Positions 19,894 through 29,942 of a stretch of 64,000 nt of DNA are shown piece by piece (within the stretch, counting starts at the first letter, position 1; every line of letters starts with the position of its first letter). The notes under the pieces were generated by a model that saw only the letters and a program-made list of their open reading frames with translations, had not been told where the DNA came from and made no database searches. Made by a program: the position numbers and the translations under genes. The stretch covers positions 1,054,001 through 1,118,000 of the forward strand of contig CP084620.1 of the NCBI GenBank assembly GCA_025917655.1, written 5' to 3'. This DNA is from Chlorella sorokiniana. Taxonomy: Eukaryota > Chlorophyta > Trebouxiophyceae > Chlorellales > Chlorellaceae.

Positions 19894-21885
19894 TCAGGGG
19901 TTGGTGGGTGGCGTGGCAGCTGCTGGAGCGCGGCTCAGACAGTCGCCATGCACACGCTCGTGCGCCACTGCGTTGGATGCGGCGTCATCTGCATTGGCTG
20001 CCTCCAGGTGGCGGGGGATGCCGCCCACCTGCACCCCCAGGTGCTGCGCAGCAGCCTGCATGGCCGCCGCCACTGTGAGCAGCAGCTGCGGTTGCTCGCG
20101 CTGCGAGGCCGCGACGGCCGTGAGGGGCATGTCTGCGTGGAGTGGGGCGGGCAGAGCGGGGCCCAGCACATCTGCACAACACCATTCCTTCAAAGCCACT
20201 GCTGCGCCAGCTCCCGACGCCAGTGGAGCATGCGCACAGGCTGCTGCTCACACCCGCATCGCAGCAGCGCCCCCCAGCCATGCGTTTGCTGCGCGCACCT
20301 GACCGCAGCGCCAGGGGGTGACAGCCACCCAGCCCTGGCCCACCGCCCACGAGTCGCACCCCTGTGAAAGGTCCCCCGCAGGCTGCCGGCCGCGTTGCGG
20401 AAGGCCCGCAGCGTCACCGCCCCCGCGTGCCCCTCACTGTAGTGAGGGTCTGCATCCATCTCCTGCATGCAGCAAGTGGGGCTGCCATGGGCCCGGAAGC
20501 ACAGGCGGGCAGGGCAGCGCAGGCTGCGCAGTCGCGCTACTGAGCGGGTCAAAAGCATCGCCAGCCGGGCGGTGGGGGCAACGCGCCTGCCAGTCTGGAA
20601 AGTGGCAGTGCACCCCCTGTTCCGCCAGGAAGAAGCCGCGGATGTCGGCGACGCCGCCCTTGGGCACTGCACCGGCGGGGAGGGTGAGCCGGAGTCGAGC
20701 ACGCACGCGGGCGCCCCCATGGCAAGGCGGCTTCCCGTGTGCAAGCCATGGCCCATTTCCGGCTAGGCTCCACGCCACCCATCCTCCCCCACCCCACCAC
20801 CGACACACACTCACCATTGACGTTGATGACGCGGCCCGCCAGGTTGGAGGTGGGGAAGGTGTGGCGGCGCGGCGCTGGCAGCACCCCAGCACCGCCTTGA
20901 TGAGGGCCAGCGTGTAGGTTGCCGCCGCCCGTACTGCTCTTGGGTGCGGGCCAGGTAGTTGTCCAGGGATACGGCGATGGAGGGCACGTCCTGTGCGGGG
21001 ACGGGGTGCATGAGGGCAGTCCATGCAGTGAGGCGCATGATGGCGTGGACGCCAACGCAGGAGCTGGGGCGCGGCAAGTCGGGCGGCCTGGCAGCGCCAA
21101 CAGGCGCGCTTGCGTGTCAGCACCCGCGCATGCGCAGCGCAGGTGCAGTTTGCAAGTCCTCCCCTGCGCGTTTGCCTTGCACGCCGCCTCGCGCGCCGCC
21201 CCCACCGTCCCAGAGTAAATGACGTGCAGGCCGCAGTTGTCGCCGCGGTTGATGCCCGAAACCACCAACTGGAAGGAGGGGCTGGCCAGCAGGGGGCCGT
21301 ACAGCGCGAGCATCACCGAGTCGGCTGCGGGGCGGAGGTGGGGGTGGGGTGCTGCAGCTGAGGGGTGCCAGGACATGCAAGGGGTGCCACGTGCACACCC
21401 AGCTGGGTAAACCACCCAGCATGGTTGCAGGAAAATGAAAGGGTGGCTGTCACGGGCGCCTCATGCCCTTGCGTACGCCACCTGGCGTGCCATCCACCGC
21501 AAAAGCCTCCTCCGCGCCCTCCACATCCAGCTGCCACGCGTGCAGGTGCTTGCCCACGGTGATGCAGTGGCTCTGCGCGGAGCGCTCGCCCGCAGGCGCT
21601 GAGACGGCAAATGTGCAGAAGCCGTCCTGGTGCAGGGCGGCTGCCAAGGCACGCAGCCCTGGCGCAGTAATGCCTGCAAGGGCAAGGCGTGCAAATAGAG
21701 CGGCGGCGAAACCGGCGGCGGCGGGATTAGGGATGTCAGGTGCTGCATAGCCAATGCCGATCCATCGGCATTGCAATGGATCCAGCCATAGTAAAACATT
21801 TGGACTATCTGGCGTCGAAAGCATTGGAGACGGTGACGTTTCGCTCACCATCGTCATTTGAGATTAGAATCCGAGGCTTGGACAT
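19894..21885 (-). CDS. surE: SurE-type 5'/3'-nucleotidase (survival protein E)
   Basis: Exon 1 from the ATG at 21885 reads MSKPRILISNDDG and splices in phase 1 to GITAPGLRALAAALHQDGF, re-creating the SurE hallmark NDDGI-x-APG with the metal-binding Asp pair. It continues TFAVSAPAGERSAQSHCIT, then after introns LASPSFQLVVSGINRGDNCG (SGIN motif), HVIYSGTVGAAREA, DVPSIAVSLDNYL, NLAGRVINVN, and QGWVAVTPWRCGQ near the usual SurE end (G-[YW]-V-[SA]-V-T-P). SurE proteins are metal-dependent phosphatases acting on nucleoside monophosphates and polyphosphate. Two features are unusual: an exon reading KGGVADIRGFFLAEQGVHCH between the N-V-N and VTP motifs, and a last exon (ADMPLTAVAASQREQ ... TPPTNP-stop) extending well past VTP. 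Exon borders in the 3' half are approximate. Confidence 0.85.
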
Positions 21886-22193: not shown

Positions 22194-25100
22194 ATGCAAG
22201 GCGGGCCAGGATGTTCCAAGGAGCCGATGCATGCAGGCCTGCCTGCTCAAATCTTCCCCAACAGTGTAGCTGCTCTCCTGCAAGGGATGGGGCAGCAGGT
22301 CGCGCACATCAATGTGCAACGAGTGCTTGAGCTGGTGAGCGAGGCGATGCGGGCAGGATGCAGTGCCTTGCTGTCAAACCGGGACACAGCTGTTCCTACC
22401 TGCTTGCAGGCGCTGGCTTCAAGTGCCAACCAGCCACAGTTCAAAGGACAGGTTGCACCGAGATGCAGCACCTTCAGCCTTGCAAGGCGAGTGTGTTGGC
22501 TGCCAGCACAATGGTTGCTGCACGGCGCTTGTTCAAACCATATCCTGTCGGCTGTGCAGGGAGGTTGCAGTGGGGGCATCAAGCGCTGACAGTCGTCCTC
22601 TGGCTGGGAGCAGCATGCACAACGCGCAGAAAGCAAGCATGCAGTACGAGGCCCAGCTGCAAGCCCTGCAGGCTGCTCATGCAGCAAAGGCCCTTGGCAA
22701 ACGGATGCAAGCTGCAGCTCCTTTGAGGTGAGCGTGTCGGGCAGCACCCAGCTTGGCACCGACATGGCAGCAAGCACCCACAGGCTCAAGTTGCTCACCT
22801 GCCCGCTTGTTGCTTGCAGGCGCACACAGGGCACGCCGCCAATCGCGCCTTTAACCAGTTACATGCCTGGTCTGCGCCGTTTTGTGGCGACCCCAGCAGC
22901 CGCCGAGATCAGGCAGCGGCTCGAGGACGACAGGGAGGTGGCGGTTGAGCTGGCAGCCAGCCCCACGGACAGCAATGCCTGCCGCCTGAAGCTGCACCTG
23001 CTGGCACCTGGGCGCACACTTGCGGCTGTGGCGGAGCGGCTCAGCTGCGGAGGTCGCGCGGCGGCCTTGCAAGCGAGGCTGGAGGCGCAGCTGCGCGATG
23101 GTCAGGCGCACCAGGCCGCCCACCGCCGCCTCCTGTCCTCTCAGCGGGCCCAACTGCTGGGGACTGCTCGCGGCTACCCTTCACCTAACCCCAGGGCTGC
23201 CCTGGCACGCCTGCTTCGCCAGTCTGTGCTTGAACGGCAGCAACAGCCTGCTGACGAGAGCAGGACGTCTGCTGGGGTGCCACCAGCACTGCAGCAGCGC
23301 AACGAGGCCGTGTTGAGCCAGCACAAGCAGCTCAAGAGAGCGTGGCGAGAGAAACGGTGGGCAGACTGTTTGGGGCTGGGAGGAACATTCCTCGGGGTTA
23401 ACCCCACCGAGCAGCACGCCAGGCTTGAATTCCAGCGCTGCCGTGCATGTCCACGACACGCAGGCTATCAATTCCCACCCTGCCTCGCCCATGCAGGGCG
23501 CTGGAGCAGCGGGAGCGCATGGCGCGCTGCGCAGCAACGACGTGGAGGAGTACATGCGGCTGGTGCAGGGAGCGCGCAACAGCAAGATCGAGGCCCTGCT
23601 CTCCCAGGTGGGCGCCGATCAGGGCAGCGCTTTCGGTGGCTTGCACGGGAGCGGCGCGGCCCAGCACCCACATGGGGCACACAGCAGATGCTTTGCGATG
23701 TGTGTACGCTTGCTTATCTTGTGGGGTGCGGGACCCCACCTCCCGCCGCAGACCGACTCCTGCCTGCGCCAGTTATCAGCCCGCCTCGGCTCAGCCGGCG
23801 CTGGCGTGGCGCTGCAGGATGCCGCCGCCGCCGGTGGCAGCCCCTCCCAGTCGGGCAGCCCACAAGCTGCTGCTGGGGGAGGCATTGCTGCCCTGGAGCA
23901 GAGCCATGAGGCATGGAACCAGCTGGCCAGGGCCTTCCTGGCCGAGGTGCATGAGCAGCCCAAGCTGCTGACAGGTGATGCAGCGGGGGATACAATCAGC
24001 GTTGGCAGCCTCAGCCGAGTTGTCCCGCCGGCTTTGACCACCCTGGCTCTGTTGATGGGATGCCTTTGTCTCGCTTGCACCCCATCCCTCTCCCTCCTGC
24101 GCAGGCGGCGAGCTGCGTGAGTACCAGATGGCGGGGCTGCGCTGGATGGTGGGGCTGCACCGCCAGGGCCTCAACGGCATCCTGGCAGACGAGATGGGGC
24201 TGGGTGGGTGGCTCCCCCGCCTGTACCCACTCGCTTGCGCGCCACTCACCAGCAGGCGATCCTGGATTTGCAAGCACTGAGCCACGCCCACTTCCCGCTG
24301 ACCCGCAGGCAAAACCATACAGGCAAGGGGCTGCCTGGATGCTCTGGCACACCCAGGTCCTCCAGAGGCATCCGCCGCTGCTCCCTTTGCCGCCGCCTGC
24401 ACGGCAGGGCCTGCCTGCCGCCCCCTGCGGTGCAGGTCATCGCCCTGGTGTGCCACCTGGCGGGCGAGCTGAGGGAGCAGCGTGCGGTCCTGGTCGCTGT
24501 GCCCTCCTCCGTGCTGCCCAACTGGGAGGCGGAGTTTGCGCGCTGGGCGCCCGCGCTGCGCGTCGCCTCCTACAAGGGCTCCCGAGCAGCGGGAGGCGGT
24601 GTGGGAGCGGCAGCTGCGACGCGGGCGGGCGTGGGCGGGAGGCCGGGGTGCGTGTGGTGCTCACCACCTATGACTTCCTCATGTCCAAGGCAGACAAGTG
24701 AGGCTGAGCTGGCGCAGGCTCGCCACCTGGCCGCGCAGCGACTGCCCAGCTTGCACCATCCGCAGGTGCATAGAGTGTGCCCGGGCGACGGCTACGTGCC
24801 GAGGCAGCGTGCCGTGCTGCCTCCCTCCACCCCCAGGCCCCGCCTCAGTCGTGTGCCCTGGAGCTACCTGGTGGTGGACGAGGGTCACCGCCTGAAGAAC
24901 GCCGCCTGCAAGCTCAACGCCGAGCTGCGCGCATACTCCACCCAGCACCGCCTGCTGCTCACGGGTGGGCTGTGCGCCCTTGTCTCCACCCCTTGTCTCC
25001 ACCCGCGCTGATTGATGTGGTTCAGGCGTTGCTCCTCACTGCCCCCCGCACGCAGGCACGCCGCTTCAGAACCGGCTGGAGGAGCTGTGGAGCCTGCTTA

Positions 25101-28100
25101 ACTTCCTGATGCCCAGCCTGTTCAACTCGGGCGAAGATTTCCAGGAGTGGTGAGGGGGATATTCGTGCATGGGTGGAGTGACCTGCGCAACGCACAGCAA
25201 TCTCTCAGCTCCCTTTTCGCTGCTCAAGTGGCCTCGCTAGTACCAGCAGGTTTGGCGGCGCAGAGCGGCGCAGCACGGCGGCTACGTCAGCTGAGGGCGG
25301 CAACAATGAGGCAGAGAGCGACGACGACTTGGGCGCCGAGGCGGCGGAGGCAGCGATGCTGACTGAGGAGGAGGCGCTGATCATCACCAACCGCTTGCAC
25401 CAGGTGGACTTTGGACGCCCAGCTGTGAAAATCCCAGCGCCCTCTCAGCGCCCTGCTTGCATCCCTGTGGTGCCAGACCAAATGCCGCTGCACCTGCTTG
25501 CCCCCAGGTCCTGCGCCCCTTCATGCTGCGCCGCCTGAAGGAGACGGTGGCCTCGGAGCTGCCGCAGAAGTCGGAGCGCCTGCTGCCAGGTGGGCTGCCT
25601 GGGTGGTGCCGCCAGGCCACCTGGAGCCCCGCGGCACGGCATGCCACAGGGAAAACAAACTCAGCAACATGGCAATCATCATGGTCCTCTCCCGCAGTGC
25701 TTCCCAGCCCCTACCAGCAGGCACTCTTCCGGCTCATGGAGCGCGAGCTGCGGGGCGGGTCGCTGCGGGGGGTGAACAACGTGTTGATGGAGATGCGCAA
25801 TGTGTGCAACCACCCGCTGATCAGGTGCGGCACCGCACAGGGCCACATTTGGGGGGGCTACCGTGGTGCATATGGGCAGGCCAAGGCTTGCTGGTTGCCA
25901 GTGCGCGTGCTTTGATGCTGCCACGGCTCCACGTGTGCTCCACCCGCAGCCGGCTGCACCCAGAGGGTGGCGAGGCGTCCCTGCCGCCGCACAACCTGCC
26001 GGCAGAGGTGCGGCTGTGCTCCAAGCTGGAGCTCCTGGACCGAGTGCTGGTGAAGCTGAAGGCGGGGGCCACAAGGTGGGCTGGGCCGTTGGCGCTATTG
26101 TGCTGAGTCTGCCGCAGGATCCAAGCTCCAGACCACACCGGTTGCCCCAGTCGCACAGTAGGATGCCTGGTTTGCCAGCCTCACAATCCTGATTGGACTT
26201 TATTCCCTGGGCCAGGTGCTGCTCTTCTCCACCATGACCCGCGCCCTGGACGTCGTCGCCGACTACCTGGACTGGCGCGGCTTCTTTCACCTGCGCCTGG
26301 ACGGAGCCACCTCGGCGGCGGAGCGCGGGGAACTGGTGGCCCGCTTCAACGACCCGGGTAGGTGGCCCTGTTCCTGGTCTTCCGCAGCTCTGCACTGATA
26401 TACAAAAGGATGAGAGCTCGGCAGCAGGTGGGACCTTGCTCTGCTCGTGCTACTGCACCCGCTCCTCATTTCATCGGTGCAGCTGGCGGCGCGTTTGTCT
26501 TCCTGCTCAGCATCCGCGCGGGCGGAGTGGGGCTGAACCTGCAGGGCGCCGACACCGTCATCATGTACGACACAGGTGGGGGCAGGGGCTGAGGTGGGGC
26601 GGGACGCTTCGCAGGAGCTTGCCGTCCCGCCTCGCACAACAGACCTGGCAGATAAAGCAGCTGGGGCTACGTGCCCGCTCGGCTCCCTGCCAGTCGCCAA
26701 GCTGTCCAGTGCACCCAGCGCTGGGCTAACCTCACTGCCCCCACCCCACCCCCCACCCCCTGGCAGACTGGAACCCACAGCAGGACCTGCAGGCGCAGGC
26801 GCGGGCACACCGCATGGGGCAGACACGCGAGGTGGGGCCTGGCTGCTGCGATTGGGCTGTAGCAGGCTACACAGGGCGGCTCCCCGTGTGTGTGGCTGCG
26901 GGTGACCGCTGTACTACCGGCTGGGACCTCGCGCCTCTGCCCTCCTGCAGGTGCTGGTGCTGCGCCTGAAGACGGTGGGCACGGTGGAGGAGCGAGTGGT
27001 GGGCGTGGCTTCGGAGAAGGCCCAGCTGGCCGACCGCTCCATTACTGGTACGGCTCAGCTGCGTGTTGGGACCAGACCAGCCTCTCCAAGAAAGGTGAAT
27101 CACTGCTCACCAAGGTTGCCTTCCGCGCGCCTTTCGCTGTTCCGGTCACGCACAGGCGGCTTCTTCGACGGCAGCACCAGCGCCGAGGAGCGGCAGCGTT
27201 ACCTGCTGGACACCATCCGCGCCTCCAGCCAGGCCGGCAGCGGCGAGAGGCAGGACACAAGCGGCCAGCTGAGTGACGACGAGCTCAACCGCCTGCTGGC
27301 GAGGGGCGATGCTGAGCTGGAGCTCTTTGAGGCGGAGGACCGGCGGATGCGGGTAGGTGCTTCCGGATAGCCAACACGCTGAGGAGAGCCAGCCTTTTCC
27401 TGCTTCCAGCTTGTGTCACATTGCCGCCACCCCTGCACGTGCACTTTGGCTTTGCTGCCTGCCTGCAGGATGCGGAGCTGGCCGGCTGGCGGGCGGTGGT
27501 GGGGGGCGGGCGGCGATGCCGGGCGAGTGGGATGCTGCCCTACAGCCGTCTAGCCGGCGACGAGGAGGTGGCGCCGCTGGTGCTTCAGGCGGAGGAGCTG
27601 CTGAAGCCCAAGCAGGCCGAGGATGCAGGTGGGCCGGATTGAGTTCATGCAAGCCGCAAACGCCTGAGCAGCAGAGCTGGTTCGGGTCAAAGGAGGTGCA
27701 TGCCACTGGCGTTCACTGCCCCCTGGGCCTTCTGCGCAGGCGTGGAGCTGGGGCGTGGCAAGCGGCAGCGTGCCGCCGCTGCCTACCGAGACATGGGAGA
27801 GCTCGACTTTGACCGCCTGTGCCGGCAGGGGATTGCGCAGGGCCAGGCGCCTGTACCGCTGCTCCTGGCAGCCGGAGTCGCTGCGACACAGCCGGTGGTG
27901 GAGTATGGCTCGGCACCCGCAGCTGCCAAGCGCCGCAGGGGCGCAGCGGTGCCGGACGACCCGGTGCCTTCAGCCCCGCAGCCAGGCGGCAGAAAGACCA
28001 GGGGACCGCTGGCCGCCACTCGTGCCGCTTTGGCCACAGCGCCAGGGCTCGACGCCGCCGATGCGCAGAAGAAGCAAGCATCAGCAGGCACCCATCCAGA

Positions 28101-29942
28101 GGAAGCTGCCCTTCTCCCGCAGCGGGCCGCGATGCATCCAGCGAGCCACGCTGCTGCTGCTGCTGATGGGGATGCACGGGCTGAGGAGGGCGATCCAGAG
28201 GCAGCTGTCGTACGCTGCAGGTCAGCTGCTGGCCCAACCAGCCCGAGCAAGGCTTCTGCACCATATCAACAGGGCGGCGGGAGCAGGGATGGCACAGCAG
28301 TAGCTGGACCTCTGATGCCAGCTCCGTTGCTGGAAGCGGGAGCGCCGGGTGGGCTACCAGCAGCCGACGCCGACAAGGAGCAAGCTGCCCAACCTGTGGG
28401 GCAATGTGCTGCCCAGCCAACCAACGCAGCAGCCACGACAAAGCCCCCGCCAGAGCTCAAGCAGCACCATGTGCCGCCAGCAAGGCAGCCTGTGTCAGCA
28501 GGTGCAGAGGCAGACCCAGCGCCTGGCGGCGACGTCGTGCATGAGGCACCTACTGGCAAGCGTCGCAGCAGCCTTGATGAGCTGGCAGAGGCTGCTGAGC
28601 TGGCACAAGCTGCCGAGACAGGCGCTCAGCACGGCCATGCACCAGCTGCCAAGCGCCAGAAGGCCGTGGCACCGCAGCACGCGCAGCACAGCGCTCCCAC
28701 CAGCTCAGCTGCAGCTGAAGCCACCCACACAGCCTCAGGAGTTCCAACTGCAGAGCGCAAACAGTGTGCCATGTGCGGCTCGAAGACCACTTCGGCAGGG
28801 CACTGGCGAAGACACCCCACCACCGGGGTGAGGCAGCCTGGTTGTGTGGTGCTGGTGGAGATGTGTTTGGGGGTGGGGCTGTATGCATGCGGGTGAGGTC
28901 TTGAGCACACACCTTGCGAAGCATTTGAGCCATTGTTCCGTGCGCCACCTGCTATTGCAGGCTCGTTTGTGCAACCGCTGTGGCTCTCAAGTCTCCAGGA
29001 AGAAGAATCAGGCAGCCAAGCATGGGCAAGCAGTGCCTGCATTGGATGGAGAAGCGCCCCCAGGAGGCCCAGGAGCAGCCTGCGCTTGGAGCTTCGCCTG
29101 AGGAGGAAGAGACAGCTGTGCCGGCAATGCAACCATCGCGCCAGACGCCAGAAGCACCCTTTGCAGGAGCAGCAGCAGGAGCAGATGCAGCTGCCCTTGC
29201 GGTATCGAGTGCGCCAGATGCAGAGCGCAAGCAGTGTGCCATGTGTGGATCAAAGACCACCTCTGCAGGACGGTGGCGAAAGCATCCAACCACTTGGGTG
29301 AGGCGTGGTTGTTCGCTGCAATGTTGGTGCTGTCAGCAAGGCTGTGGGCGTCCTCCAGCTTTCCATTTCTTGCGCGCCACCTGCAGGCCTGCCTGTGCAA
29401 CCGCTGCGGCTCAGAAGTCTCCCGCAAGAAGAAGAAGCCTACGACAAAGCCTGGAGAGGCAGCAACCGCAGTGCATGGAACGATTACTGGCACGGCACCT
29501 GAGCATTCAATGCCTGGGCAGACAGAGTCAGCAGCGCTGCTTCCAGCCGCACTGCCTCCGCGTCGGATGCCAGCTGCAGCTGGAAATGCAGCAGAGGCCA
29601 GGGCAAGCAGTTTGTCAGCCTTAGGTGCTGCAGAGGAGAAGGGGCAGGGCCTAGCCTCCCACGCAGCACAGCAGACAGCTGTGGAGGAACGGCGCTGCAC
29701 GCACTGCGGTGTGGCCGACACGCCCATGTGGCGCAGGTGTGTGGGGCGCAAAGAGCTGTCTCCCACATGCAATACATTGACTTTCTTCCAACTCTCATGC
29801 ACAGCGCCTGTCAGATGCCTCCTCCTCCTGCTGCAGGCACCCCACCACGCGCAGGCTCCTCTGCGACCGCTGCGGCCGCTACGTGCGCACTCACAAGGGC
29901 CAGCTGCCGGAGCCAAAGGTGGCGCCTTCTCGCATGCCCTGA
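22194..29942 (+). CDS. SWI/SNF-family ATPase with three C-terminal GATA-type zinc fingers
   Basis: N-terminal exons (start taken as ACCATG at 22194) lead to [18 protein letters not shown] and a charged helical region ([20 protein letters not shown]). The Snf2 motor follows: [34 protein letters not shown] (ATP site), [13 protein letters not shown] (DEGH box), [89 protein letters not shown]. After it lie [20 protein letters not shown] and [17 protein letters not shown], as in Brahma/BRG1 and plant MINU proteins. The exon 27740-28827 runs unbroken from GRGKRQR to the first zinc finger. Fingers at 28765-28981, 29235-29407 (C-x2-C-x20-C-x2-C) and 29696-29873 (x18, [14 protein letters not shown] / [13 protein letters not shown]) precede the stop at 29940-29942. 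Likely a chromatin remodeller recruited by its own DNA-binding fingers. A few one-base frame breaks occur, for example near 23520 and 29055. Confidence 0.85.
24309..24322 (+). other. 14-nt microexon encoding the ATP-binding lysine of the SNF2 motor
   Basis: The exon before it ends DEMGLG in phase 1 at a GTGGGT donor. Only GCAAAACCATACAG (24309-24322) restores GKTIQ, after CCCGCAG, before the next exon begins [12 protein letters not shown] at 24436. Its donor is GCAAGG, so the following intron (24323-24435) is GC-AG. Confidence 0.75.

Follow-up and report, generated by a model that had tools for sequence, protein, structure and literature searches.

The guidance of SWI/SNF ATPases is generally attributed to transcription factors and accessory subunits. 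GATA-type zinc fingers belong to a different context: in GATA factors the CNACGLY stretch of the finger contacts DNA, and in the NuRD subunits MTA and GATAD2 such fingers are thought to bind proteins or the nucleosome surface. A stretch of 64,000 nucleotides of Chlorella sorokiniana (contig CP084620.1, positions 1,054,001 to 1,118,000; hereafter the window, with coordinates counted from its first letter), from a genome of 38.8 Mb in 15 contigs, carries on its plus strand a gene in which an SNF2 motor is followed by three GATA-type fingers. As in NuRD, the fingers would thus be part of a remodelling complex, but there they sit on separate subunits, whereas here they are encoded on the ATPase. 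By the sequence of its motor the gene is a SPLAYED (SYD)-class SWI/SNF ATPase, and the fusion of motor and fingers in one protein looks real. We regard it as a little better than an even chance that the SYD-class ATPase, a flexible linker and the array of GATA-type fingers form one protein that docks on DNA. This reading is carried by the class of the motor, by the single frame leading from motor lobe 2 into finger 1, by the same order in the Chlorella vulgaris protein P0002 and by the conservation of the last finger.

A description of an SNF2-GATA protein was not found in literature searches, which were partly aimed at other questions. The term GATA does not occur in the main text of a SWI/SNF survey (PMC9170682) or of a plant Snf2 survey (PMC3842944), and neither GATA nor the tag D9Q98 occurs in the main text of PMC6972661, which presents a BRAKER1 annotation based on RNA sequencing. 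A Chlamydomonas GATA//BAH protein is listed in PMC8320531, so GATA fingers on green algal chromatin proteins are not wholly new; what appears to be new is a SYD remodeller with a GATA-like tail. An earlier note on this DNA knew of no described protein with this order. That statement agrees with the literature searches, but P0002 was already in a public database.

Gene architecture and motor class

By splice-site reading, 22 exons were placed within 22820-29942. As placed, the introns measure 89-191 nt, all acceptors are CAG, and the donors are GT throughout, with one GC exception after a 14-nt micro-exon. The gene is laid out as follows:

22194-22333, plus strand: possible first coding exon, with ATG at 22194 and GTGAGC after 22333 (a candidate)
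22820-23974, plus strand: N-terminal and HSA-like part, exons 22820-23356, 23497-23607 and 23752-23974
24105-27047, plus strand: SNF2 motor (SNF2-rel_dom and Helicase_C), 13 exons, from Pfam and the P0002 alignment
27156-27352 and 27469-27628, plus strand: post-motor exons, from splice reading and the P0002 alignment
27740-28827, plus strand: fusion exon in open frame: the GRGKRQR segment, then a low-complexity linker (about 310 residues) and the opening half of finger 1
28765-28827, plus strand: finger 1, first half (below the PF00320 cut-off)
28961-28981, plus strand: finger 1, second half (ARLCNRC), after intron 28828-28960
29235-29297, plus strand: finger 2, first half (below the PF00320 cut-off)
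29387-29407, plus strand: finger 2, second half (ACLCNRC), after intron 29298-29386
29696-29736, plus strand: finger 3, first half (x18 spacing)
29837-29873, plus strand: finger 3, second half, after intron 29737-29836
29940-29942, plus strand: stop codon in the last exon, from the sequence

Motor and fingers are linked through exons 13-19 (26216-28827), which splicing joins in a single frame from lobe 2 of the motor to half of finger 1. The fusion exon 27740-28827, which had been described as running without interruption from GRGKRQR to the first half of finger 1, is open over 362 codons with 0 stops; the other two forward frames contain 2 and 8. Such an open frame is uncommon by chance, since among Markov sequences simulated as controls it was obtained in only 13 of 5000 of first order and 193 of 5000 of second order.

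The domain search of the spliced protein that had been recommended was run with Pfam on an exon-wise composite and detected SNF2-rel_dom (258.6 bits), Helicase_C (77.5 bits) and GATA (46 bits, in two stretches). HSA, QLQ, SnAC and bromodomain were not found at E values up to 0.1. At the HSA position the composite and P0002 are identical at 78 of 119 residues, and in neither does Pfam give an HSA match.

The class of the motor was assigned from a tree of 42 rows, comprising the window and 41 rows selected from 120 listed relatives (of 1197 matches), to which the counts of relatives given below also refer. The window motor falls inside a 28-row clade with plant SYD (100/99), as sister of P0002 (100/92), with Micractinium and C. 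sorokiniana next. Outside the SYD clade lie the SNF2 rows with a bromodomain, other plant SNF2 rows, which we take to be MINU-type, and a few algal rows. This corrects the earlier note, which had drawn its comparison with Brahma/BRG1/MINU-type ATPases. The window protein shares with the plant SYD ATPases the clade, SNF2-rel_dom and Helicase_C, the absence of a bromodomain match and a GRGKR segment after the motor, located here in exon 19 and present as YGRGKR in many plant rows. It differs from them in giving no SnAC match at E 0.1 and in adding C-terminal GATA-type fingers. Among the matches listed, SnAC (PF14619) is annotated on most plant SYD rows, but the closest relatives, P0001-P0016, are also without it, so this absence was not used to exclude SYD membership. 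Another type of tail is seen in P0053 (2475 residues, 47% identity to the motor), which has Tudor-type domains near its C-terminus.

The 14-nt micro-exon (24309-24322), the one with the GC donor, encodes the GKTIQ portion of the motor's ATP-binding motif. At the 5' end, a start at 22194, as first proposed, is hardly supported: residues 18-147 of P0001 align with 22269-22574 (E 0.005, composition correction off), a match that overlaps only part of the candidate exon and extends beyond its assumed donor at 22333. Upstream, at 20549-21863 on the minus strand, lies a SurE-like gene (two open reading frames, with 40 and 51.3 bits), which probably forms a head-to-head pair with the gene of the remodeller.

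The same order in Chlorella vulgaris

The same arrangement occurs in C. vulgaris D9Q98_003464 (P0002), a protein of 1534 residues named 'hypothetical protein' at NCBI, in which SNF2, Helicase_C, the GRGKR segment, a linker and GATA fingers follow one another. We presume it to be a product of the BRAKER1 annotation. Pfam gives GATA 64.4 bits in three stretches, and four tryptophan-containing CxxC-CxxC motifs stand after MGRGKRQR. The domain order and the GATA fingers within one predicted protein are thus common to both species; the arrays differ, with four motifs of two alternating kinds in P0002 and, in the window, a pair of similar fingers (1 and 2) plus finger 3.

Identity to P0002 varies along the protein. 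It amounts to 79 of 168 residues in the N-terminal part, 251 of 316 (79.4%) in motor lobe 1, 154 of 175 (88.0%) in lobe 2 and 94 of 159 in the post-motor region, and falls to 69 of 225 alignable residues (30.7%) in the linker. Finger 3 is identical to the last finger of P0002 at 31 of 42 residues (73.8%; 68% in a separate finger alignment). With an identity near that of the motor, the last finger seems to be maintained by selection, whereas the linker is drifting. The claim that motor and fingers belong to one protein is strengthened by the shared order and by a last finger whose conservation comes close to that of the motor.

Between fingers 1 and 2 the identity is 88%, against only 28-41% between either of them and any C. 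vulgaris finger, and for this reason they look like a duplication within the lineage of the window. Over 43 codons they differ by 15 synonymous and 7 non-synonymous changes, with a ratio of non-synonymous to synonymous proportions (pN/pS) of 0.15.

Searched with the composite's finger region, 7990 scored candidates yielded no other long protein at E values up to 1, and the finger region of P0002 matched P0002 itself alone (4604 scored candidates); these negatives carry little weight, because the search with the composite missed P0002 despite its related fingers. P0063 was considered as a finger carrier and dropped by eye, as its CxxC pair is without tryptophan.

Docking on DNA and the alternatives

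All three fingers conform to C-x2-C-x17-20-C-x2-C with a tryptophan (x20, x20 and x18 in fingers 1, 2 and 3), and each is divided by one intron, in phase 0 in fingers 1 and 2 and in phase 2 in finger 3. With 40.2 bits, finger 3 is the sole finger above the PF00320 gathering cut-off of 26.8 bits. It retains TPMWRR, and its matches in the PDB at E up to 0.01 comprise 14 distinct sequences, all of them GATA factors, the best being GATA-1 (1.1e-11). Finger 1 matched 26 PDB rows at E up to 1, of which GATA factors rank first, led by GATA-3 (1.3e-4); the remaining rows include zinc fingers of unrelated type and other proteins. Compared with the GATA factors (GATA-1, GATA-3, AreA and plant GATA 18), finger 3 has the same C-x2-C-x18-C-x2-C and TPxWRR; the differences lie in the changed CNACGLY, in the x20 spacing and lower scores of fingers 1 and 2, and in the position of the fingers on an ATPase.

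In the mechanism we propose, the flexible linker would give the fingers access to DNA next to the nucleosome while the motor is at work. The fingers would grip this DNA, finger 3 being the most likely to have a sequence preference and fingers 1 and 2 assisting it; the motor would then slide or evict the neighbouring nucleosome. With the fingers on the motor protein, the ATPase would therefore dock itself without a separate recruiter.

Several observations weigh against docking by an intact protein of this kind. The scores of fingers 1 and 2 (24.9 and 16.8 bits) are below the PF00320 cut-off, and the two fingers match P0002 at 17 of 42 residues and at 5 of only 15 that could be aligned, respectively. 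The CNACGLY of aligned GATA factors is altered to CNRCGSQ, CNRCGSE and CDRCGRY in fingers 1, 2 and 3. A pattern screen found finger motifs in only 1 of the 120 relatives, P0002, which is itself a gene prediction. Moreover, the gene has five frame breaks in the assembly, including one that separates finger 1 from finger 2; the three fingers do not form a single open frame there, and the density of breaks is above that of the controls described below.

Since all three fingers differ from CNACGLY, recognition of GATA sites is not to be assumed, and an altered DNA preference or protein binding becomes possible. The 'sequence-specific DNA reader' of the earlier note goes too far in this respect, given that two fingers fall below the GATA cut-off and the stretch is changed in all three. 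The best surviving alternative, which we rate as clearly less probable than docking on DNA but still worth serious attention, takes the fusion as real and sees the fingers as binding to other proteins or to the surface of the nucleosome instead of a DNA sequence, thereby holding the ATPase to a partner subunit. The scores of fingers 1 and 2 and the altered stretch would fit such a role, as would the listed Chlamydomonas GATA//BAH protein and a related finger whose open frame also holds the beginning of a SET domain (see the next section), but finger 3, with its TPMWRR, its good GATA score and PDB matches that at E up to 0.01 are all GATA factors, points the other way, and the 26 PDB rows that finger 1 matches at E up to 1 include no NuRD subunit.

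It is improbable that the locus makes two products, namely a short SYD ATPase, ended by early polyadenylation or by retention of intron 18, and an internally started finger protein. Read-through of the donor at 27628 does reach a stop at 27640-27642, and the models of some relatives are short: that of C. sorokiniana P0003 ends before GRGKR, and those of P0004, P0005, P0009, P0013, P0014, P0035 and P0075 end 15-51 residues after it (P0011 and P0040 have longer tails without such fingers). However, the GRGKR segment and half of finger 1 share one open exon, the C. vulgaris gene is predicted to encode one protein, and Micractinium P0001 continues past GRGKR, matching ELGRGKRQR...PVPLL with 72.5% identity over 40 residues. 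The long stretch of P0001 after PVPLL is unlike the tail of the window, and its tail was therefore set aside as uninformative. TGTAA, the green algal polyadenylation signal, is absent from the plus strand between 21000 and 31500, an argument of little weight against early polyadenylation, as it is absent after 29942 too.

The frame breaks of the gene in the assembly are:

before 23524, plus strand: one break in exon 2 (23497-23607), relative to P0002
within 24436-24697, plus strand: two breaks in exon 6, relative to P0002
26075/26216, plus strand: one break at the join of exons 12 and 13, relative to P0002
29099-29101, plus strand: TGA closing the frame of the second half of finger 1, with finger 2 and all that follows in another frame, which places one break somewhere in exon 20

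The earlier note had two more fingers following the first by clean splicing; each finger does splice cleanly, but the frame after finger 1 ends at this TGA and finger 2 lies in another. The frames could be rejoined by a micro-intron of 31 nt in exon 20, but this was rejected, because the introns as placed measure 89-191 nt. By eye, runs of G or C coincide with or adjoin three of the five breaks, namely both in exon 6 and the one that ends exon 12. As a frame control, HSP70 and TCP1 matches in the same genome were used (57 + 55 = 112, 19.4 kb). Only once were two adjacent matches out of frame with each other, in an HSP70-like gene at C3:1270454-1271083 (L056), where reading of the sequence revealed a second break; both lie at G runs. 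At ten further SNF2 loci the matches are short, and no adjacent break was seen among them. The assembly thus contains such breaks, and since those of the HSP70-like gene are similar, we infer as the preferred reading that the breaks of the remodeller gene are consensus errors and that an intact protein is made. That the breaks are real, and the gene a decaying copy whose protein is no longer made, is very unlikely: the five breaks do exceed those of the controls, but no second close copy was found in the genome among the 27 matches listed, at the placed splice sites all acceptors are CAG and all donors GT or GC, the motor is highly identical to that of P0002, pN/pS between fingers 1 and 2 is low, and the HSP70-like gene also has its two breaks at G runs.

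Related fingers in the genome and their possible role

Additionally, GATA-like fingers were sought elsewhere in the genome. At E up to 0.001 there are 22 matches to PF00320; the window, whose fingers are split by introns, contributes none. A tandem cluster at C6:2208144-2241432 (L047-L050) holds, by pattern, 19 GATA-like CSHC fingers in about 33 kb, and a second, longer-spaced finger with QCAxCGS was present in all three open reading frames inspected. This cluster is a local expansion, and the array of the remodeller may derive from the GATA-like finger family expanded in this genome.

The best match of finger 3 outside its own gene is at C1:3318543-3318668 (59% identity, E 5.4e-10). At this locus (C1:3318165-3319871 and beyond, L053), a finger and the start of a SET domain lie in one open frame of 568 codons, with 37.8 bits for GATA and 21.4 bits for SET, against a cut-off of 22.4. 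In the genome search SET reached 50.8 bits, with one stop inside. By eye, a stretch that we take to be AWS-like stands between finger and SET in another frame, and one that we take to be Tudor-like stands after SET. The locus is possibly a second chromatin enzyme with this type of finger, a lead rather than a result. More speculatively, and doubtfully on present grounds, the expanded finger family of this lineage may serve as a plug-in targeting module, fused to SYD and perhaps to a SET methyltransferase, by which enzymes that depend on separate recruiters in other organisms would choose their own genomic sites.

Such built-in docking of a chromatin machine would be unusual. If the reading is true, a single-celled alga would allow the share of remodeller targeting that is due to the motor protein to be asked about directly, with the Auxenochlorella and Trebouxia gene models without the tail as natural comparisons.

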